Shown here one piece after another: positions 1 to 9,624 of a stretch of DNA of 64,000 nucleotides. Position numbers and translations under genes: made by a program. Position 1 is the first letter of the stretch. Every line of letters begins with the position of its first letter. This DNA comes from an uncultured SAR116 cluster alpha proteobacterium (GTDB lineage: Bacteria; Pseudomonadota; Alphaproteobacteria; Puniceispirillales; Marisalimonadaceae): assembly GCA_902615325.1 (NCBI GenBank), contig CACMOJ010000002.1:1-64000 (forward strand), read 5' to 3'. The notes beneath the pieces were generated by a model. It worked only from the letters and a program-made list of their open reading frames with translations, was not told the origin of the DNA and made no database searches.

Positions 1-228
1 TTTTAGAGAACTTAAATTTTGGGATAAAATGTAGATATCTCCTGCTCTTGGAGAAATCATGCCGCAAATTAAATTGAGAAAAGTTGATTTACCAATGCCA
101 CTTTTACCTAATATAAGTTTTTTTTCATTAGTTTGGATTGAAAAATCATTTATTTGAATCTTAAATTCATCTTGATTATTCCAATAAAATTCTAAATTTT
201 TAATCTCAATAAGATTCTTTGAATTCAT
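1..228 (-). CDS. ABC transporter ATP-binding protein, partial (cut by window edge)
   Basis: Only the first 76 codons are inside the window; the frame runs off base 1 without a stop. The translation begins MNSKNLIEIKNLEFYW and contains a Walker A motif GKSGIGKST near residue 43, so it is an ABC ATPase. Its ATG overlaps the TGA of the upstream DUF2796 gene (TGATG), so the two are translationally coupled. DUF2796 proteins (ZrgA in Vibrio, the PA4063 locus in Pseudomonas) are usually followed by an ABC transporter linked to zinc, so this is probably the ATPase of a second zinc-related transporter. Permease genes would lie outside the window. The ORF track misses it because of the truncation. Confidence 0.85.
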   Translation of the reverse strand, partial: MNSKNLIEIKNLEFYWNNQDEFKIQINDFSIQTNEKKLILGKSGIGKSTFLNLICGMISPRAGDIYILSQNLSSLK

Positions 229-836
229 CAATTAGAAAAGTTATACAAACTTAGTTTTTTTGTAAATTTATTTATTTTATGTTTTGTAGTGGATTTTCTT
301 CCAATAACATTGAGTTCTAAATTTTTACTATTTTTAAAACTATCAAAAATATTAAAAGTTATAGAAGAAAACTCTGTTATATTTGAGCAGTTATATTCAT
401 ATTTTGCTCTAAACTCAGTATGATTTTTTTCTTCTAAAATTTTTGATGAGTTATTTAAAATTTTACAATTTGCTGCGGATGGTATAGAAAGTAAATTAAC
501 TGGATTCTTTAACATATTTAAAGCATTTTTGACTAAATCTTTATCTTTTTGTGACTTAGCTTTATATTCAAATCCAACTGTATCAAAACCAGGCATTTCA
601 ATATCAAATAGAACTTTATTTTTTTCTTGAACTACATTAATTACACTCAGTCCATGTACATGTGCATCTAAAGATCCTTTTTTATCATGGTCGTGTTTAT
701 CATGGTCGTGTTTATCATGGTCGTGTTTTTTTTTCATAACCTTTTTTTCTTTATGGTCATGATCATGTTTGTGATTTCCTGATGAAAATGAATTGAAAGA
801 AAATAATATAAAAATGATAATAATTAGATAACGCAT
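228..836 (-). CDS. ZrgA-like periplasmic zinc protein (DUF2796)
   Basis: The 202-residue protein has a signal peptide (residues 1-19), a His/Asp-rich stretch with repeated KHDHD units (about residues 22-52), then a DUF2796-like domain. Recognisable family features are the DAHVHGLS entry motif, PGFDTVGFE, and two cysteines (AANCKIL and YEYNCSN) that could form a disulfide. ZrgA proteins are zinc-repressed periplasmic proteins that work with a dedicated ABC transporter in zinc acquisition. Here the gene is followed with one-base overlap by an ABC ATPase and is preceded by a Zur-like operator (876-892), consistent with induction under zinc shortage. Family assignment is by motif recognition; the exact transported form of zinc is unknown. 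Confidence 0.8.
   Translation of the reverse strand: MRYLIIIIFILFSFNSFSSGNHKHDHDHKEKKVMKKKHDHDKHDHDKHDHDKKGSLDAHVHGLSVINVVQEKNKVLFDIEMPGFDTVGFEYKAKSQKDKDLVKNALNMLKNPVNLLSIPSAANCKILNNSSKILEEKNHTEFRAKYEYNCSNITEFSSITFNIFDSFKNSKNLELNVIGRKSTTKHKINKFTKKLSLYNFSN
681..725. repeat. Three exact 15-bp tandem repeats in the ZrgA-like gene
   Basis: The unit tttatcatggtcgtg occurs three times without mismatch. On the minus strand it encodes the repeated pentapeptide KHDHD in the His-rich linker of the DUF2796 protein. Exact repeats at the DNA level imply recent expansion or homogenisation by slippage, so copy number may vary between strains. Confidence 0.9.
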
Positions 837-955: not shown

Positions 956-1591
956 TTATGAAATATTATTGTAAATATTTTTCCAATAGTCAGCGTGATC
1001 TAATCTAAGTAAAATAGAATTTTTTTTTAAGGCAGAATCCGGGGTTCTGTGAAGAAGGCCTTCTGAGCCGCCTTTAAAAATGGCTATGTCCCATTCATTA
1101 ACGAATTGTTTTTTTTGAAGGAATTTTAATATTTTTTCATTGGGCTCGCCATTTAAATAAGCTAATTTATCTGCAGCAGCATCAGGTAGCCACTCTGTAC
1201 CTTCTCCAGAATAAGTTACTAGTAATCTTTGTGGTACATTGTCAATGTGGAAACGTTTACATCCTCTTTTTGAGCCTATCCACATACTTATTGAACTGGT
1301 ATTTTGAATATCACAAAAAATTTCGCACACATAAGTAATATCATTTATCCAAGTTTCATAAAAAATAGAAGATTTGATTTCGAACGAAAAAACGTCTGAT
1401 AAAGCTGATTTAATATTATTTTTTGTATCAAATTTACTTATTTCTGCATTGACTGAGAAATCAATTTTAATAAGGTTTTTAAAAAAGCTAACTGAACCTT
1501 GAGGTGCATTCCTTTCATAAATCATCAATTTACTATCTATATAAGAAAAGTTTTTAAATTCATTTATATTTTTAGCTAAAATTAAACTCAT
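956..1591 (-). CDS. DUF1826 domain protein of the zinc-scarcity operon
   Basis: This 211-residue protein matches the DUF1826 family by the conserved block CKRFHIDNVPQRLL and TYSGEGTEWLP, and by the later LLHRTPD. DUF1826 genes commonly sit beside COG0523 GTPases under Zur control; the biochemical role is not established. The arrangement H115-x-D117 ... H181 ... R196 resembles the metal and co-substrate residues of Fe(II)/2-oxoglutarate oxygenases, but that is my inference. It is the last gene of zur-cobW-WD40-87aa-DUF1826, with only 7 bases between it and the 87-residue gene. No signal peptide is visible, so it is probably cytoplasmic. Confidence 0.8.
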   Translation of the reverse strand: MSLILAKNINEFKNFSYIDSKLMIYERNAPQGSVSFFKNLIKIDFSVNAEISKFDTKNNIKSALSDVFSFEIKSSIFYETWINDITYVCEIFCDIQNTSSISMWIGSKRGCKRFHIDNVPQRLLVTYSGEGTEWLPDAAADKLAYLNGEPNEKILKFLQKKQFVNEWDIAIFKGGSEGLLHRTPDSALKKNSILLRLDHADYWKNIYNNIS

Positions 1592-1598
1592 AATTTAT

Positions 1599-1862
1599 TC
1601 ATTTTTCATTATCATATAAAATTTCAATATCTTTTATTTGAATTTCACTCGCTGACTTTGATATTCTCCAATCTTGAATTGAACCATCAGATTTTCTTAC
1701 AGTAAATACTGTCTCCACTGGGGGACAATTAGGTTCATGACAACGAAGTTCAGCAACACTAATTGTTGAATCCTCTGAAACAGAAAATTTTTCAGTAAAC
1801 ACAGTTTTCAAATTTCTAATAATCTCTGGATTTGTTTTTTTATTATCAAACATCCCAACCAT
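1599..1862 (-). CDS. Conserved small protein with CxxxxCPP motif, zinc operon
   Basis: An 87-residue cytoplasmic protein of unknown function. The notable segment is AELRCHEPNCPPVETVF, with two cysteines five apart, a His and a Glu that could bind metal. Similar short proteins in alphaproteobacteria are sometimes labelled nitrate reductase in databases, which this sequence does not support. Its ATG overlaps the stop of the WD40 gene by one base (TAATG), so it is coupled to it. Its place between a WD40 protein and DUF1826 in a Zur-preceded operon suggests a role in zinc economy, by context only. Confidence 0.7.
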   Translation of the reverse strand: MVGMFDNKKTNPEIIRNLKTVFTEKFSVSEDSTISVAELRCHEPNCPPVETVFTVRKSDGSIQDWRISKSASEIQIKDIEILYDNEK

Positions 1863-2899
1863 TAATTATCTCCAGCCCATAACGGTGACCAGAGTATATT
1901 ACCCATCGCGTCACCAATAAGTATATGAGATTTGTCATTAGAAATAGAAATTGCAGTAACCTCAGAGCCAGTTGCATTTCTAATAAGATATGATTTTTTG
2001 GTTTCATCAATTTCTGACAAGACTACTGATCCATCTTGAAAACCAGCAAAAACAGCATTCTCTTGAGGTAAGTTTTCCACAAAAGTTGCATTTTGCTTAC
2101 CTCCATTCGCAACACAGGTTGGTTTTCTTCCAAGTGGCCCATCCTTTCCATCAAATGGCCAGCAAATAGCTTCACTGGCTCCAGAAGTCACCAAAAAAGG
2201 TGTGCTTCCTGCCCAAGTAAAGCTTTTGATTTTAGAGGGATACCCTGCCATCGCTAAATCAATTTTATCTCTGATACGCCACCCATGTACTTCGTTTTCT
2301 TGCATGGCTGAAACAAGATACTTTCCATCAGGACTAAAAGTAACTTTTCCATGAGAACCTTTCCATACAAATCGAGATGATTTCCATCTTCGGTCACCCC
2401 TTTGCCAAACTGTAACACCCCCATATGACGACACAGCTAACTTATTTCCTTCTAAATCAAAAGAAAGACCTCCAACAGTGCTTGAATTATCCATGATTAG
2501 AGGTTTGCTGTCGTCATTGACCCAAAGATATGCTTTTTTGCCTGATGAGCATGCAAAGAAGTTTTCAATTGATGCGACGCAATCAACCCACTGTGAACCA
2601 AAATTGTAAATCTCATTTATTTGCCCATCGGATGATATTTTAAGAAACTTTCCATCATCTCCACCTGTAAAGACAAATTGACCATTCGAACTCATTGTAA
2701 GTATAACTCCTTTATGAGCTTTAACTTCAAATGGTTCTTGATTTAATCCAAAAAAACGCAATGATCCATCGCCAAAACTAGTTACAACTGCGTTATTAAG
2801 GACAACTGATCCAGTAACTGGTGCCTTAATTTTATATTCGTTACCTCTTTGTTCTAATTTTGTTTTTACAATATTTTTAGTTTGCAAATCTATATTCAT
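1862..2899 (-). CDS. WD40-repeat beta-propeller protein, zinc operon
   Basis: The 345-residue protein has spaced WD40-type segments (DGSLRFFGLN, DGKFLKISSDG, LAVSSYGGVTVWQRG, YLVSAMQENEVHGWRI, DGSVVLSEID, HILIGDAMGNILW) that would build roughly a seven-bladed propeller. There is no signal peptide, so it is predicted cytoplasmic. Propellers normally act as protein-binding scaffolds. Its start overlaps the stop of the COG0523 GTPase by one base, and the next gene overlaps its own stop, so these three are made together. A likely, unproven role is to hold the GTPase or its client metalloproteins. Confidence 0.8.
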   Translation of the reverse strand: MNIDLQTKNIVKTKLEQRGNEYKIKAPVTGSVVLNNAVVTSFGDGSLRFFGLNQEPFEVKAHKGVILTMSSNGQFVFTGGDDGKFLKISSDGQINEIYNFGSQWVDCVASIENFFACSSGKKAYLWVNDDSKPLIMDNSSTVGGLSFDLEGNKLAVSSYGGVTVWQRGDRRWKSSRFVWKGSHGKVTFSPDGKYLVSAMQENEVHGWRIRDKIDLAMAGYPSKIKSFTWAGSTPFLVTSGASEAICWPFDGKDGPLGRKPTCVANGGKQNATFVENLPQENAVFAGFQDGSVVLSEIDETKKSYLIRNATGSEVTAISISNDKSHILIGDAMGNILWSPLWAGDN

Positions 2900-3867
2900 T
2901 AAGATTTACAACCTTCAAATCCTTCTTGAAGTCCCATATTTTCTAAATTTCTTCCTATAAAAACAACTCTAGAGTTTCTTTCGGCATTTTTTGGCCATGG
3001 ACCCATTGGGGAAGCATCCATTAACATATGAACACCTTGAAAGACATAACGTTCATCTTTCTCAGCAAAATTTAAAATACCTTTTGATCTTAAAATATCT
3101 TGTCCGTGAGTTTGTAATAGATTTCCAAACCAAGTTTGAAACTTGTCCATATTTAGTGGAGTTTCAGAAACAAATGAAACACTTGTTACGTCATCATCAT
3201 GATCGTGGTCATGGTCAGATTCTAAAAAGTCAGGCTCTACTTCTAAAACACGTTTTAAACTAAATGCATTCAATCCGAGTATTTCATCTAAAGGTGCGGC
3301 ACAACGTGTTGTTTTAATAATTTTTGCGTAAGGATTAATTTTTTTTATTCTTTTTTTAACGTTTTCTAACCCTTTTTCATCTACTAAATCTACTTTATTC
3401 AGTAAAACAACATCAGCAAACGCAATTTGCTCCTCAGCTTCATGATGTTCACCAAGTTGAGAGTTTAAATGAACTGCATCTGCTACTGTGACAATAGCAT
3501 CTAATTTTGTTCTATCTGCAACATCTTGATCTACAAAAAAGGTTTGTGCTACAGGTGCAGGATCAGCGAGGCCAGTCGTTTCAACTATTATAGCATCTAG
3601 TTGGTCAGCCCGTTTCATCAAACCACCTAGAATTCTTATTAAATCCCCACGAACTGTACAGCAAATACATCCGTTATTCATTTCAAACACTTCTTCGTCA
3701 GCATCAACAACTAAATCATTATCAATACCTTGTTCACCAAATTCATTAACTATTACGGCATACTTACGTCCATGATGTTCAGTCAGTATACGATTTAAAA
3801 GAGTTGTTTTACCAGCACCTAAAAAACCTGTTAAAACTGTTACTGGTACTTGTTCTACAGTTTGCAT
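2899..3867 (-). CDS. COG0523 (CobW/ZNG-type) GTPase, putative zinc metallochaperone
   Basis: The 322-residue protein shows the COG0523 layout: Walker [10 protein letters not shown] (residues 14-22), the metal-binding CxCC motif GCICC (C67, C69, C70), a DXXG-type ETTGLADP segment, the guanine motif NKVD, a His/Asp-rich loop [10 protein letters not shown] (about residues 218-227) and the C-terminal CobW_C domain. Members under Zur control deliver zinc to client enzymes during shortage. Here it follows zur by 24 bases and starts the coupled chain GTPase-WD40-87aa. A cobalamin role is less likely, as no cobalamin synthesis genes are near. An AGGATG ribosome site precedes the ATG. Confidence 0.88.
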
Positions 3868-3891: not shown

Positions 3892-4278
3892 CTAAATACA
3901 ATTATTACATTGACCATGTATTTCAAAAATTGGGTTGTCAGCTAAAAATCCTGTTTTTTCAGATAATGATTTTATACTATTAGCAATATTTATATCTAGA
4001 TGCTCGGTTACATTTCCACACGTTTTACAAATTTCAAAAATTGGAACTTTATTTTCATGATTACCACAACATACAGTCCACGCATTCAATGATTCGATCT
4101 TATGAATCAGACCATTAGATACAAGTTTATTGAGAGCTCTATAAATCGTTGTTGGAGCAGAAATACCCTCAGAAGCTAATTCTTTAAGTATTTCATAAGC
4201 TGATAACGGTTTTTTCTTTTTTTTTAAAAAATTATAAACTTTATTCGCATGTGTTTCGTTATTTCTTTTTAAAGACAT
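3892..4278 (-). CDS. zur: Fur-family zinc regulator Zur (first paralogue)
   Basis: A 128-residue Fur-family repressor with an N-terminal winged helix (recognition segment APTTIYRALNKLV) and a C-terminal dimerisation domain. The structural zinc site is present as CKTC and CNNC. Compared with E. coli Zur, the regulatory ligands are all visible: His in LIHKIES, Cys in TVCC, His in GNHE and Glu in NVTEH. It leads an operon with the COG0523 GTPase and is preceded by a Zur-like palindrome at 4327-4343, suggesting autoregulation. A second Zur-like gene follows znuB at 7147. Confidence 0.85.
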   Translation of the reverse strand: MSLKRNNETHANKVYNFLKKKKKPLSAYEILKELASEGISAPTTIYRALNKLVSNGLIHKIESLNAWTVCCGNHENKVPIFEICKTCGNVTEHLDINIANSIKSLSEKTGFLADNPIFEIHGQCNNCI

Positions 4279-4326: not shown

Positions 4327-4343
4327 ATGTTATAACATAACAA
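4327..4343. promoter_or_regulatory. Candidate Zur operator upstream of the zur-cobW operon
   Basis: The sequence ATGTTATAACATAACAA includes a perfect 12-bp palindrome ATGTTATAACAT. It lies 49 bases before the zur start and matches the pattern at the other two zinc promoters in the window. It probably serves zur autoregulation and control of the GTPase operon. Confidence 0.65.
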
Positions 4344-4414: not shown

Positions 4415-5479
4415 CTAACACTTATTAAGATTTTCATATAAATCATTTATCAAATTAAAATATAAGTCATTCCCAGGTTTATAAGATGAACCATGAGGAT
4501 CTAATATACCGGTTTTAGCTCCTGAGCTTTTGGCAATCATATTTATAAGTTTTGGATTAAACTGTGGTTCAGAAAATATACATTTTATATTCTTATCTTC
4601 AACAAGGTGTTGTATCTCTTCAATTTGCTTTGCGCCAGGTTGAATATCAGTATTGATAGTAAGTGCACCTAATGCCTCAACACCAAATCTTTTTTCAAAA
4701 TATTGATAAGCGTCATGAAATGTTACAAAACTTGCTTTTTTATTTATAGATTTATCAATTTTGTTTATTAGATTATCAAGTTTATTAACTGTATTATTAG
4801 CATTCATCTTATAAAAATCTGAATTTTTTGAATCTAAAGTAGCTAATTGATTAGCAACTTCTTTAACTATAACTTTTGCATTATTTGGATCCAACCATAT
4901 ATGCACGTCAAACTCACCATGAGCATGAGCATGACCGTGCTTGTCATGATCATCATGTTTAGCGTGCTTATCTTCCTTGTGACCATGTTTGTCATGATCA
5001 TCATGCTTATCTTTTTTATGACCGTGCTTATCATGGTCATCATGCTTGTCATGCTTGTCTTCTTTGTGACCGTGCTTGTCATGATCATCATGATCACCAT
5101 AGATATTTTTTTCTCGAAATTTGTGAATCTCCAAGCCACTAATGTCCATTAAATGAACAACCTTAGCTTTTTTTGGTATTGATTTAAGTGGTTTTTCTAA
5201 AAAACTTTCTAAATCTTTATCAATCCAGAAAATTGCATCTGCATTTTCAAGCATTTTTGCATGTGAAGGTTTTAAAGTAAAACTATGTGGTGATGCTGTT
5301 CCCTCTAAAATAAGATCTAACTTACCTTTATTTCCCATTACATTTGATATAAGAGAGTGTAGTGGCTGTATCGTTGTTACTACTTTAATTTCAGCATTAA
5401 CCCCGGTACTAAAACTAATTGGAATTATTGATAAAATTAAATATTTAAAAAAAATTTTAATTTTGTTTGACTTAAACAT
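4415..5479 (-). CDS. znuA: Periplasmic zinc-binding protein ZnuA
   Basis: The 354-residue protein is the solute-binding subunit of the ZnuABC zinc importer. It has a signal peptide ending near residue 29 (GVNA/E), the first zinc His in ASPHSFTLKPS (H65), a long His/Asp/Lys-rich loop at about residues 128-186, a second ligand His in FDVHIWLDP, a third in TFHDAYQYF, and the acidic ligand near ILDPHGSSY. The His loop is longer than usual and made of repeated KHDDHDKHGHKED units, fitting a zinc-scavenging role. It is divergent from znuCB with a shared Zur-like site between them. Confidence 0.93.
   Translation of the reverse strand: MFKSNKIKIFFKYLILSIIPISFSTGVNAEIKVVTTIQPLHSLISNVMGNKGKLDLILEGTASPHSFTLKPSHAKMLENADAIFWIDKDLESFLEKPLKSIPKKAKVVHLMDISGLEIHKFREKNIYGDHDDHDKHGHKEDKHDKHDDHDKHGHKKDKHDDHDKHGHKEDKHAKHDDHDKHGHAHAHGEFDVHIWLDPNNAKVIVKEVANQLATLDSKNSDFYKMNANNTVNKLDNLINKIDKSINKKASFVTFHDAYQYFEKRFGVEALGALTINTDIQPGAKQIEEIQHLVEDKNIKCIFSEPQFNPKLINMIAKSSGAKTGILDPHGSSYKPGNDLYFNLINDLYENLNKC
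4915..5100. repeat. Degenerate tandem repeats encoding the ZnuA histidine-rich loop
   Basis: This stretch is built from diverged copies of a unit of roughly 36-48 bp (for example tcatgatcatcatgcttatc and gaccgtgcttatcatggtca) coding for KHDDHDKHGHKED-like segments on the minus strand. Two spurious ORFs in the track (4847-5152 plus and 4867-5139 minus) are by-products of this low-complexity DNA. It resembles the His-rich repeat of the ZrgA-like gene. Confidence 0.8.
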
Positions 5480-5581: not shown

Positions 5582-6322
5582 ATGAAAAAAAATAAACCTT
5601 TAGTAAAATTAAATAACGCAGGTGTTTATAGAGATGAAAAATGGCTAGTTAAAGGTATTTCATTAGAGATAAATAAAAAAGAAATTGTGACATTAATAGG
5701 TCCGAATGGATCTGGTAAAACGACTACAGGTAAATTAATTTTAGATATACTTCAACCTGATGAAGGAAGCGTTAGTTTAAATACTAAACAAATCGCATAT
5801 GTCCCTCAGAAGATTAATATAGATTGGGCAATACCACTAAGGGTAATAGATTTCATGAATATTACCTCAAAACTCGATAAATCAAAAATTATACAAAGTT
5901 TAGAATTAACAGGTGTTGATCACTTAATTTATAAAAATCTTTTGAACTTATCTGGTGGAGAATTTCAAAGAGTTATGATTGCAAGGTCAATAGCCAAACA
6001 ACCTGAATTATTAATTTTAGATGAACCTGTCCAAGGAGTTGATTTTAATGGTGAAATAAAATTATATAATTTGATTAAAGAAATATCTGATAAACTTAAA
6101 TGTGGTATTTTACTCATATCTCACGATATTCATTTTGTCATGTCATCTACAGACCATGTTATTTGCTTAAACGGTCATGTTTGTTGCTCTGGGACACCTA
6201 ACGATGTTGCGAAAAACCCAGCCTATATAGAACTCTTTGGAGAAACTGCAGCTTCTGCAATTTCATTATACAGGCATGATCATAACCATACTCATAATCA
6301 AGATGGAAGTATTTCGAAATGA
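5582..6322 (+). CDS. znuC: Zinc ABC transporter ATPase ZnuC
   Basis: A 246-residue ABC ATPase that powers zinc import. Visible motifs are Walker A GPNGSGKTT (about residue 40), the signature LSGGEFQR, Walker B LLILDEP and the switch His in LISHDIHFV. The C-terminus carries a short His-rich tail HDHNHTHNQD, seen in other ZnuC proteins. The stop overlaps the znuB start by four bases (ATGA), so the two are coupled. A Zur-like operator precedes the gene. Confidence 0.93.
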   Translation: MKKNKPLVKLNNAGVYRDEKWLVKGISLEINKKEIVTLIGPNGSGKTTTGKLILDILQPDEGSVSLNTKQIAYVPQKINIDWAIPLRVIDFMNITSKLDKSKIIQSLELTGVDHLIYKNLLNLSGGEFQRVMIARSIAKQPELLILDEPVQGVDFNGEIKLYNLIKEISDKLKCGILLISHDIHFVMSSTDHVICLNGHVCCSGTPNDVAKNPAYIELFGETAASAISLYRHDHNHTHNQDGSISK

Positions 6323-7134
6323 TCTTAGATGATTTTTTTACAAGAGCTCTTTTAGCTGGCATAGGGATGGCAATTGTTGCTGGACCATTAGGATGTTTCG
6401 TTATTTGGAGAAAATTAGCTTATTTTGGGGATACTCTTGCTCATTCAGGTTTACTTGGGGTCACAATAGGCTTCATTTTAAATATAGATTTATCTTTATC
6501 TGTTTTTGTAATTTCTGGAATTATTGCTTTACTTCTTATAGTTTTACAAAAGAAAACTAAATTAGCTGGTGACGCTTTACTAGGTTTGCTTGCTCATTCT
6601 TCACTTGCCATAGGACTTGTTTTTATAGCAATACTTACAACGATTCGTTTTGACTTAATGGGACTTTTAGTTGGTGATATACTCTCTGTGACTATAAATG
6701 ACATAATTATAATTTGGCTAGGAGGAAGTTTAATCTTGTTAGTCTTATTTTATATCTGGAAATCCTTGTTTGCAGCAACTGTAAGTTATGACCTTGCAAA
6801 AGCTGAGGGAATGAACCCTGATGTTTCAAATTATATATTTACTGTAATTTTAGCTGGTATTATTGCTATATCCATAAAAATGATTGGTGTTTTATTAATT
6901 ACAGGTTTGCTATTAATACCACCTGCCATGTCTAGAAACTTTAGTAATAGCCCAATTCAAATGATGTTTTTTTCAATCATTGGTGGTATTTTATCTGTCG
7001 TAATAGGTTTGTTTTGTTCTTTAGAATTAAATACTCCTTCAGGACCAAGTATTATAGTTGCTTCATTAATGCTTTTCATCATCTCCTTATTTTTCAAAAA
7101 AGGAATGACTATTGTACAAAAATCAAAAATTTGA
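6319..7134 (+). CDS. znuB: Zinc ABC transporter permease ZnuB
   Basis: The 271-residue integral membrane protein belongs to the ABC-3 family of zinc/manganese permeases. It has about eight hydrophobic segments and typical family stretches such as WRKLAYFGDTLAHSGLLG near the N-terminus and the later IKMIGVLLITGLLLIPPA. It forms the membrane channel with ZnuC and receives zinc from ZnuA. Start and znuC stop overlap; a second Zur-like regulator follows 12 bases downstream. Confidence 0.93.
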   Translation: MILDDFFTRALLAGIGMAIVAGPLGCFVIWRKLAYFGDTLAHSGLLGVTIGFILNIDLSLSVFVISGIIALLLIVLQKKTKLAGDALLGLLAHSSLAIGLVFIAILTTIRFDLMGLLVGDILSVTINDIIIIWLGGSLILLVLFYIWKSLFAATVSYDLAKAEGMNPDVSNYIFTVILAGIIAISIKMIGVLLITGLLLIPPAMSRNFSNSPIQMMFFSIIGGILSVVIGLFCSLELNTPSGPSIIVASLMLFIISLFFKKGMTIVQKSKI

Positions 7135-7146
7135 TATTTTGAAAAT

Positions 7147-7530
7147 ATGTTAGAATTGTCATTTAATCAGGAAACCGTACACAAACTTCTACAAGCATCT
7201 GATAAACCTTTAAAGGCATATAATATTCTCTTTGAAACACAGAAATTAGGAATTAAGTCCCCTACTCAAGTTTATAGAGCATTAGATAAATTAATAGAAT
7301 TAGGTAAGGTTCATAAAATTGAAAGTAAAAATGCTTTCGTGGCCTGCAGCAAAATTAATTGTTCAAATCAAAATTCTACATTTTTTTTAATATGTGATAC
7401 TTGCGAAAATATCATTGAACTTGAGGATCAAAAAATTACTGACCAGTTAAATAAGACTTGTGAACAGTATGGAAGCAAATATAAAAATCATACTATAGAA
7501 ATATCTGGAACTTGTTCAGACTGTAATTGA
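7147..7530 (+). CDS. Second Fur-family Zur-like regulator downstream of znuCB
   Basis: A 127-residue Fur-family protein. The DNA-binding part (SPTQVYRALDKLIELGKVHKIES) is close to the first Zur, and the structural CxxC pairs (CDTC, CSDC) are kept. In the sensor region the His in VHKIES and Cys in FVAC are present, but the expected His before the CxxC is absent; KINCSNQNS offers a Cys instead. The place after znuCB is the usual position of zur in alphaproteobacteria, so this may be the ancestral copy with altered sensing, or a specialised paralogue. Likely co-transcribed with znuCB. Confidence 0.8.
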   Translation: MLELSFNQETVHKLLQASDKPLKAYNILFETQKLGIKSPTQVYRALDKLIELGKVHKIESKNAFVACSKINCSNQNSTFFLICDTCENIIELEDQKITDQLNKTCEQYGSKYKNHTIEISGTCSDCN

Positions 7531-7562
7531 TAATTAAGAAGTCAATTAATTAAGATTTTTTT
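7531..7562. terminator. Weak AT-only hairpin between the second zur and the TRAP permease gene
   Basis: TAATTAA and TTAATTA form a 7-bp stem around an 8-base loop, followed by a run of seven T on the plus strand. It fills the convergent gap between the Zur-like gene and the TRAP permease. All pairs are A-T, so termination strength is doubtful. Confidence 0.35.
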
Positions 7563-7563
7563 A

Positions 7564-9624
7564 CTATCCTGATAAGTATTTTGGAAACCATAGCGCAATA
7601 TCTGGAATAAACATTACCATTAACATACCGATTATTTGTAAAGCAATAAAAGGAAGTACTGCATAAAATATTTCTTGTAATTCTATATCTGCTGGAGCAA
7701 CTGATTTAAGCCAAAAACATGCTGGCCCAAAAGGTGGTGATAAAAAATATATTTGTATGTTCATTACAAAAAGTACTCCAAACCAAACAGCTGCCCATTC
7801 AGGCTCTAAGCCAAGTTCAGGAGCCATTCCTACCACAACAGGTGCAAACACTGGAACAGTAATAAATGCAATAGCTATCCACTCCATAAAGGTCCCTAGA
7901 ACAACTAAAATTCCCATCATAACAAAAACGATCCCAAGTGCTGGCAAACCAAGTCCAGAAAATAAAGACCTCATAAAATCAGCACCACCAATTAAGTTAT
8001 AAATTCCTACAAATGCAACAGCGCCTAAAATTAACCAGATAATTGTACCTACAGTTGACATTGTTCCAGCTAGAGCTACTTGTAATAAATTCCAATCAAA
8101 AGAGTTTCTAAATGCTGCTACAAAAATAGCTCCTAGTACTCCAACAGCAGCTGCTTCAGTAACTGAAGCTATTCCTCCATATATTGATCCCATCACACAA
8201 AAAATTAAAAATATACTTAAGAAAACAGCATAAAGTTTATCCTTAGACATTTTCATTTCTTTTTTTCTAGCAGCAGCTACTTCTTCTGCTGTCGGTGCCA
8301 TGGCAGGATTGATATTACATCTTGCCAACACATACAAAGCATATAAGAACGCTAAAAGAAGCCCTGGAACAGCTCCTGCCATAAATAAGTCACCAATTGC
8401 TACTTGAGCTGATAAACCATAAATAATCATTATAATACTTGGTGGAATTAGCGTAGCGAGTGCTCCAGAAGCACAAATTAATCCTATCGACATTTTTCTA
8501 TCATAACCCAGTCTTAAAAGCTGAGGTAGGGCAACTAATCCTAACATTACAATTTCACCACCCATTACTCCAGACATGGCAGCTAAAACAACAGCTACTG
8601 CTATAGTTTGAATAGCTACTCCACCTCTCAGTTTTCCAGCAAAAATAGACATTGCATCAAACAAATCTTCAGCAACACCAGCTCTTTCGAGTATTGAAGC
8701 CATTAAAACAAATAAAGGAACAGCAATTAAGGGATATTTTTCTAGTAGTCCAAATGCATTAGTTGACACTAAATATAACCCACCATACCCAAAGTAAAAT
8801 AATGCACTAAGTATTGAAACAAAAAGAGTAACTACTCCTAAAGGCATTCCAGTCATCATAAGAACAAGCATTAAAGCAACAATAAGTAAACTTGCTGTAC
8901 CAATATCCATATCTCTCATATTGATAATTTCTTGTGGATTAATGAAACCACCTACATATGCGTAAATAGAATTTATATATCCAAAAAAACTCTCTTCACC
9001 CATAAAATGAACAATGATAACACAAGTGATTCTTAATAAAATTAACCCACATACAATTAAAACTATATTTTTTGCTAATTTAGATGAAAAATGTCTGTAC
9101 AAATTAATCATCAACTGGAGTATGTAAACAATAGCTCCGAGTGTTAACATTGATTTTAAAATTAAGGGTTGTGGTGAATTCCAAGCACTACCTGCCCTTT
9201 CAATCATCATCACAGACTCTAAAGCTCTTATAACAGAATCATCTATAAGCAGCCATAATGCTATGACACCAATGACATAGGCGAATAAATCAAGCCACCA
9301 CTTACCTCGATCAGAGGCCATTATATAGAAAACAGTTATACCTATATGACGTTTATGCAAAGTTACATAAGCTGCAGATAACATCCATGCAGTAGCAGCC
9401 AATACCATAACCACCTCAAAAACCCATTGAGTTGGAGAATCGAAAATATATCTTGATACAACTTCATATCCTGTAACTGCAGCACAGATTAAATATAATT
9501 GAGCAACAGCTAATCCAGAGAATTTACTGAAATGATCATAAAATCTAAAGTTATCGTGAATTGGTTTAAAATTTTCTTCTTCATCCAATATTGTACCTTT
9601 TTTATTTACTGTAATTTCTGACAT
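7564..9624 (-). CDS. TRAP transporter fused small and large permease (DctQM)
   Basis: The 686-residue membrane protein joins two TRAP subunits. Residues about 25-195 are DctQ-like (TRYIFDSPTQWVFEVVM-type segment and four hydrophobic helices). Residues about 235-686 are DctM-like, with GMPLGVVTLFVSIL, the GGVAIQTIAVAV and MSGVMGGEIVML region, and GLICASGALATLIPPSI. TRAP systems import organic acids using a sodium or proton gradient and a periplasmic binding protein. The matching DctP is on the opposite strand at 9877 with a microprotein between. The start is supported by GGAGAA seven bases before the ATG and a good promoter upstream. Confidence 0.9.
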   Translation of the reverse strand: MSEITVNKKGTILDEEENFKPIHDNFRFYDHFSKFSGLAVAQLYLICAAVTGYEVVSRYIFDSPTQWVFEVVMVLAATAWMLSAAYVTLHKRHIGITVFYIMASDRGKWWLDLFAYVIGVIALWLLIDDSVIRALESVMMIERAGSAWNSPQPLILKSMLTLGAIVYILQLMINLYRHFSSKLAKNIVLIVCGLILLRITCVIIVHFMGEESFFGYINSIYAYVGGFINPQEIINMRDMDIGTASLLIVALMLVLMMTGMPLGVVTLFVSILSALFYFGYGGLYLVSTNAFGLLEKYPLIAVPLFVLMASILERAGVAEDLFDAMSIFAGKLRGGVAIQTIAVAVVLAAMSGVMGGEIVMLGLVALPQLLRLGYDRKMSIGLICASGALATLIPPSIIMIIYGLSAQVAIGDLFMAGAVPGLLLAFLYALYVLARCNINPAMAPTAEEVAAARKKEMKMSKDKLYAVFLSIFLIFCVMGSIYGGIASVTEAAAVGVLGAIFVAAFRNSFDWNLLQVALAGTMSTVGTIIWLILGAVAFVGIYNLIGGADFMRSLFSGLGLPALGIVFVMMGILVVLGTFMEWIAIAFITVPVFAPVVVGMAPELGLEPEWAAVWFGVLFVMNIQIYFLSPPFGPACFWLKSVAPADIELQEIFYAVLPFIALQIIGMLMVMFIPDIALWFPKYLSG

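Follow-up and report, generated by a model that had tools for sequence, protein, structure and literature searches.

A conserved GTPase, WD40 propeller and p87 gene set in a Zur-linked zinc locus of a SAR116 alphaproteobacterium, with a DUF1826 neighbour of predicted oxygenase fold

The zinc-scarcity gene set found in an uncultured member of the SAR116 cluster is layered and does not form one four-gene unit: the conserved unit comprises a COG0523 GTPase, a WD40 beta-propeller and an 87-residue protein (here p87), and their order is kept well above chance. Comparison of gene neighbourhoods suggests that the fourth gene, encoding a DUF1826 protein, is a guest in this module, which shares its regulon and mainly belongs with the ZigA module. 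We read the locus, with a probability of about 0.6, as a Zur-controlled zinc-delivery module (GTPase, propeller and p87) accompanied by an accessory DUF1826 oxygenase. To our knowledge, two points are new: p87 as a family with conserved partners, and the assignment of DUF1826 to an oxygenase fold. That GTPase and WD40 genes are linked, and that DUF1826 responds to zinc, is already known. For zinc delivery inside the cell, the foremost candidates are GTPases of COG0523, of which few bacterial partners and clients are known. p87 accompanies these GTPases and the propeller in SAR11 and SAR116, marine bacteria of high abundance, and offers a concrete handle on this process; for DUF1826, a widespread protein of zinc starvation that includes PA5534 of Pseudomonas aeruginosa, the predicted fold points to an activity that can be assayed.

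The zinc locus and its Zur-like box

The window (the whole analysed stretch of 64,000 nucleotides) contains the following features:

228..836 (-), ZrgA-type zinc uptake protein, Pfam ZrgA 105.6 bits, 119 bases downstream of DUF1826
878-890, Zur-like site with one mismatch, before zrgA
956..1591 (-), DUF1826 protein, PF08856 78.9 bits (gathering cut-off 22)
1599..1862 (-), p87, 87-residue protein, predicted alpha-beta-beta-beta-alpha, without a Pfam or NCBIfam family
1862..2899 (-), WD40 beta-propeller, Pfam WD40 38.9 bits (cut-off 27)
2899..3867 (-), COG0523/CobW GTPase, Pfam cobW 204.8 bits and CobW_C 88.6 bits
3892..4278 (-), zur1, Fur-family regulator and first gene of the operon, Pfam FUR 33.1 bits
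4329..4341 (-), Zur-like palindrome GTTATGTTATAAC, exact motif match, 51 bases upstream of zur1
4415..5479 (-), ZnuA zinc-binding protein, Pfam ZnuA 218.9 bits
5540-5552, Zur-like site with one mismatch, between znuA and znuC
5582..7134 (+), znuC and znuB, zinc ABC transporter, Pfam and NCBIfam matches
7147..7530 (+), zur2, second Fur-family regulator, Pfam FUR 39.1 bits

A preliminary description of this DNA had proposed four coupled genes behind zur that serve under zinc scarcity. All four open reading frames are indeed there on the minus strand, with one-base overlaps at the GTPase/WD40 and WD40/p87 junctions and with gaps of 7 bases between p87 and DUF1826 and of 24 bases between zur1 and the GTPase. 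The zinc context also holds, as the window has two Zur-like genes, ZnuABC and ZrgA, together with a Zur-like box upstream of zur1. The top NCBIfam match of zur1 is Zur, at a score under the Zur equivalog cut-off. Among 80 related p87 loci (see below), 65 have a zinc transporter, Zur or ZrgA within the fetched stretch. The ZnuABC genes of the window are flanked on both sides by Fur-family (Zur-like) genes (3892-4278 and 7147-7530); a long tandem repeat rich in His and Asp (KHDDHDKHGHK...) is present in ZnuA (4415-5479) and, in shorter form, in ZrgA (228-836).

The motif GTTAT-N3-ATAAC is found in exact form at 4329-4341, and to judge from its sequence and position, GTTATGTTATAAC is the probable operator of the zur1-GTPase-WD40-p87-DUF1826 operon. 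Across the whole window the motif shows no enrichment (7 found against 5.4 expected), and because this count is at chance level, the Zur-box claim rests on the comparison between operons: of 70 regions upstream of related operons, 56 contain the motif, against 4.6% of shuffles; the control shuffled bases in a simple way, and the 70 regions include many that are related to one another. The window motif agrees with the EMSA-tested Zur motif of Paracoccus denitrificans, e.g. GTTACGATATAACAT (PMC5387054). In that bacterium a COG0523 gene and two hypothetical genes (pden1338-1340) form one Zur-linked operon, which is up 8- to 13-fold under zinc depletion (PMC5387054); the two hypothetical genes may be relatives of the WD40 and p87 genes.

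p87 and its GTPase and propeller partners

The preliminary description regarded the small cysteine protein as undescribed, and we agree: searches of Pfam and NCBIfam found no family for p87, which by gene order is a two-cysteine partner of the GTPase. Its motif C-H-E-P-x-C-P-P is encoded by bases 1719-1742, and among 36 diverse relatives only C41, P44 and C46 (C-x2-P-x-C) are invariant. The structural model, of moderate confidence (pLDDT 76), has the order alpha-beta-beta-beta-alpha; a fold search with it gave no significant match among solved structures, and PDB sequence searches with p87 and with its profile returned nothing useful. The dsRBD and ribosome-hibernation-factor folds share this order of elements, but we rejected them, as their E-values (0.15 and worse) are too weak. 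The nearest GTDB relatives are from SAR116 single-cell and metagenome genomes, and no p87 relative was found in viral contigs.

Using the p87 profile we gathered 80 GTDB loci, from hosts that include SAR116, Pelagibacteraceae (SAR11) and Rhodobacterales. In every one of the 80, WD40 is the gene immediately upstream of p87; 76 also have the GTPase, and DUF1826 was found in 9. The expectation that the four genes are conserved as a set was therefore borne out in part: GTPase-WD40-p87 is coupled far beyond close relatives, and DUF1826 usually does not travel with it. In genome draws that were not chosen for gene order, p87 relatives sit beside a COG0523 GTPase or WD40 gene in 23 of 27 places, namely after GTPase-WD40, immediately after the module's own GTPase type or a ZigA-type GTPase, or after WD40 alone; one tested GTPase that precedes p87 scores above the ZigA cut-off. 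Nothing argues more strongly for a role of p87 together with these GTPases and the propeller than this variety of partners. The remaining 4 of 27 places have no such neighbour, and the same was seen on Phyllobacterium, Rhizobium and Calothrix plasmids; since some relatives stand alone in this way, the family is broader and not tied to a role with GTPase and WD40 only.

Named examples include the cultured Gemmobacter aquarius (GTPase-WD40-p87 with the same one-base overlaps), Sinorhizobium chiapasense (aztABC-GTPase-p87), Mesorhizobium huakuii (GTPase-GTPase-p87 by aztAB, with the annotation "nitrate reductase") and Agrobacterium rubi. WD40-p87 pairs apart from any GTPase occur as well (loci L236 and L238-L241), and a WD40-p87 pair, read as that stretch alone, is found in Methylobacterium bullatum (NZ_LR743510.1, 63952-65183). 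p87 relatives directly behind a ZigA-type GTPase, without WD40, are present in loci L176 (5372-7290) and L229 (4665-6189). In one metagenome contig (L172, 1071-1601) p87 is joined in frame to the C-terminal end of a ZigA-like GTPase, which may reflect a deletion, a chimera or an assembly error. The Gemmobacter locus (L295) contains an unannotated 109-residue gene (7298-7627) that overlaps the end of p87 by four bases and has no Pfam match. A DUF1636-like cysteine protein (motif CMSQCKR) and an iron/metallophore-type ABC transporter repeatedly adjoin the module (L051, 3932-4348; L060, 4063-4482; L295, 9858-10310, where the protein is annotated as DUF1636).

The gene order could also be that of an ordinary operon whose genes share Zur control while their products form no physical complex. 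All the genes belong to the zinc regulon, and co-regulation by itself may hold genes together; however, p87 stands strictly behind WD40 or GTPase in distant lineages and at differing zinc loci, while nearby transporters and regulators vary, and we regard this explanation as unlikely.

The GTPase has a nucleotide-binding domain, a CobW_C domain and a CxCC metal motif, here CICC (residues 67-70, bases 3658-3669), and so belongs to COG0523/CobW. Its nearest solved structure is E. coli YjiA. It scores below the equivalog cut-offs of both ZigA (NF038288, 196.7 bits against 600) and YjiA (NF008578, 237.7 bits against 361). The WD40 protein has 40 invariant columns among 18 diverse relatives; judged by eye, no signal sequence is visible in its translation, and the propeller is probably cytosolic. 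A WD40 profile drawn over the class has matches in 38 of 241 genomes. In alphaproteobacterial loci that lack p87, the GTPase gene is next to or near the WD40 gene on the same strand in 18 of 20, and we saw no hidden divergent p87 downstream of WD40 in these loci. The adjoining of the two genes there argues that GTPase and WD40 are an old pair, and that p87 is a later, or a partly lost, third member. Such linkage was on record: Haas 2009 already presents the clustering of WD40 with COG0523 subfamily 5 and shows DUF1826 in Zur-linked clusters (PMC2770081), so the suggestion that the WD40 and DUF1826 links were undescribed has to be withdrawn. The window GTPase has the neighbours of subfamily 5 (WD40, znuABC and a Zur site), a likeness set by gene neighbourhood.

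The two cysteines of p87 allow more than one reading. A metal site made of two cysteines alone is weak. As one alternative, p87 might regulate the GTPase or the propeller or cap it structurally (e.g. acting in nucleotide exchange or folding), with cysteines that are structural and carry no metal. A small alpha-beta-beta-beta-alpha protein behind several COG0523 GTPase types and WD40, with an invariant proline-rich loop yet just two Cys, would suit such a role. The His-rich tails (HNHNH, HTH) on several SAR11 and related copies favour contact with metal instead, and a disulfide is disfavoured in the reducing cytosol. We consider the regulator or cap a serious but tentative alternative to p87 as a metal-handling adaptor, the reading we prefer.

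DUF1826: a guest with a predicted oxygenase fold

The DUF1826 gene lies directly behind p87 in three SAR116 genera. Of 29 loci outside the module, 20 have one or more zinc-regulon genes near DUF1826, and in 12 it directly adjoins a ZigA-type GTPase gene on the same strand; sampled ZigA-type partners reach the ZigA cut-off of 600 or nearly so. A separate family has the order GTPase-WD40-p87-DUF1826-ZigA type, and in Gemmobacter a DUF1826-ZigA pair is convergent beside GTPase-WD40-p87. Together these two layouts outline a possible route to the arrangement seen in the window. In Francisella, DUF1826 responds to zinc limitation or to loss of Zur (PMC5786701). The P. aeruginosa member, PA5534, responds to N-acetylcysteine and zinc depletion (PMC9431628; PMC11761036); a 2025 study lists this gene, next to zigA, as unannotated and suggests in passing a zinc-sparing paralog or zinc chaperone (PMC11761036).

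The predicted DUF1826 model is confident (pLDDT 93.6, pTM 0.90) and contains a double-stranded beta-helix. A fold search with it gave 156 PDB matches at E <= 0.001, and the best 50 listed are overwhelmingly Fe(II)/2-oxoglutarate (2OG) oxygenases; the best match has an E-value of 1.6e-5, TM-scores are modest (0.3-0.5) and identity is about 10%. Small-molecule oxygenases such as the ethylene-forming enzyme and auxin dioxygenase lead the matches, among which the protein hydroxylases FIH, JMJD5 and MINA53 also appear. A DUF1826 sequence profile compared with solved structures found no 2OG oxygenase, and a PDB sequence search with the protein itself gave nothing useful. In 2OG oxygenases an Arg or Lys about 10-14 residues after the last His binds 2OG. 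Across 60 DUF1826 sequences the HxD...H triad is nearly invariant (H115 in 59, D117 in 60 and H181 in 59), and the candidate for the 2OG-binding arginine is R192 (H+11) in 52, while 8 SAR116-type sequences have S192 and R196; since the arginine of the SAR116 type has moved four residues, each of the 60 sequences keeps exactly one arginine at 192 or 196. In the window protein, H115, D117 and H181 are the predicted metal triad, and R196 is the candidate 2OG-binding residue. Triad and retained arginine fit a working 2OG site, short of proof. We also note an extra conserved cysteine, Cys111, beside the HxD motif.

The model therefore suggests an Fe(II)/2OG oxygenase rather than a zinc effector. 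The preliminary description cast DUF1826 as the effector of a complex, a role that does not agree with its absence from most copies of the module, its frequent pairing with ZigA-type GTPases elsewhere and its predicted fold. It is possible, though by no means assured, that DUF1826 acts as an oxygenase on small molecules within the zinc response, and that Zur control is the sole reason for its location: the best fold matches are of this kind, and its frequent zinc-regulon neighbours include no fixed partner beyond ZigA. Against this, metallophore genes were not seen beside DUF1826 in the window, and direct coupling to the ZigA-type GTPase in 12 of 29 loci suggests a chaperone link. Hydroxylation of p87, the propeller or a client, which would couple the allocation of zinc to the status of iron, oxygen or 2OG, seems improbable to us: the position directly behind p87 in the SAR116 genera and in the family ending with the ZigA type speaks for it, as does the presence of protein hydroxylases among the fold matches, but DUF1826 was not found in 71 of 80 p87 loci and at other sites stands with neither WD40 nor p87. 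DUF1826 might also bind metal without catalysing a reaction, as a cupin-like protein, or be a zinc-sparing paralog or a zinc chaperone. This view would accommodate the published suggestion for PA5534 (PMC11761036), Cys111 and the shifted arginine of the SAR116 clade; we doubt it, as HxD...H in nearly all 60 sequences and an arginine at 192 or 196 in all are as in a working enzyme.

Proposed working and comparison with known systems

In the reading that we favour, a shortage of zinc would release Zur from its box ahead of zur1, and coupled translation would yield GTPase, propeller and p87 together. The GTPase would hold zinc at its CxCC motif and hand it to priority clients in a GTP-driven cycle, and the propeller would dock the client or the GTPase. 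As a small adaptor, p87 may bind the GTPase, the propeller or both, and position or pass on the metal through its C-x2-P-x-C loop. DUF1826, as a predicted Fe(II)/2OG-dependent oxygenase, would be an accessory of the same regulon. From gene order, a complex of GTPase, propeller and p87 is plausible, and DUF1826 is unlikely to be one of its members. The parts of scaffold and metal relay, which the preliminary description gave to the propeller and the small cysteine protein, are likewise inferred. A bolder version, in which p87 represents a new class of small cysteine adaptor for several COG0523 GTPases and the propeller, and DUF1826 modifies the apparatus or the client, with iron, oxygen and 2-oxoglutarate thereby tuning the delivery of zinc, strikes us as very unlikely.

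Several known systems resemble parts of this locus. AztD, a periplasmic zinc chaperone, is a beta-propeller encoded in zinc loci, often near CobW genes (PMC6689063), as is the window WD40; we rejected it as the identity of the WD40 protein, which is without a visible signal sequence and had no AztD chain among the PDB matches listed. The Fe(II)/2-oxoglutarate oxygenases (ethylene-forming enzyme, FIH, JMJD5, MINA53) have the HxD...H triad and the predicted fold in common with DUF1826, which differs from them in its low identity (about 10%), in the lack of a sequence-profile match and in the arginine shift of its SAR116 clade. Eukaryotic ZNG1, like the window GTPase, belongs to COG0523, carries CxCC and is used when zinc is limiting, a likeness by description; its chaperone action on the client MetAP1 is documented (PMC10642216). 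Most eukaryotic COG0523 forms are placed in subfamily 5 by Haas 2009 (PMC2770081). Subfamily 5 itself, with WD40 and znuABC, shares with the window the CobW-type GTPase, the adjoining WD40 gene, the zinc transporter and the Zur-site context; unlike the window set, the GTPase-WD40 linkage as described in the text consulted (PMC2770081) does not have p87 and DUF1826 as members. The ZigA module (zigA-DUF1826, e.g. P. aeruginosa PA5535-PA5534) combines, as in the window, a Zur-controlled COG0523 GTPase with DUF1826; the window GTPase is not ZigA (196.7 bits against the cut-off of 600), and the window adds WD40 and p87 to this combination.
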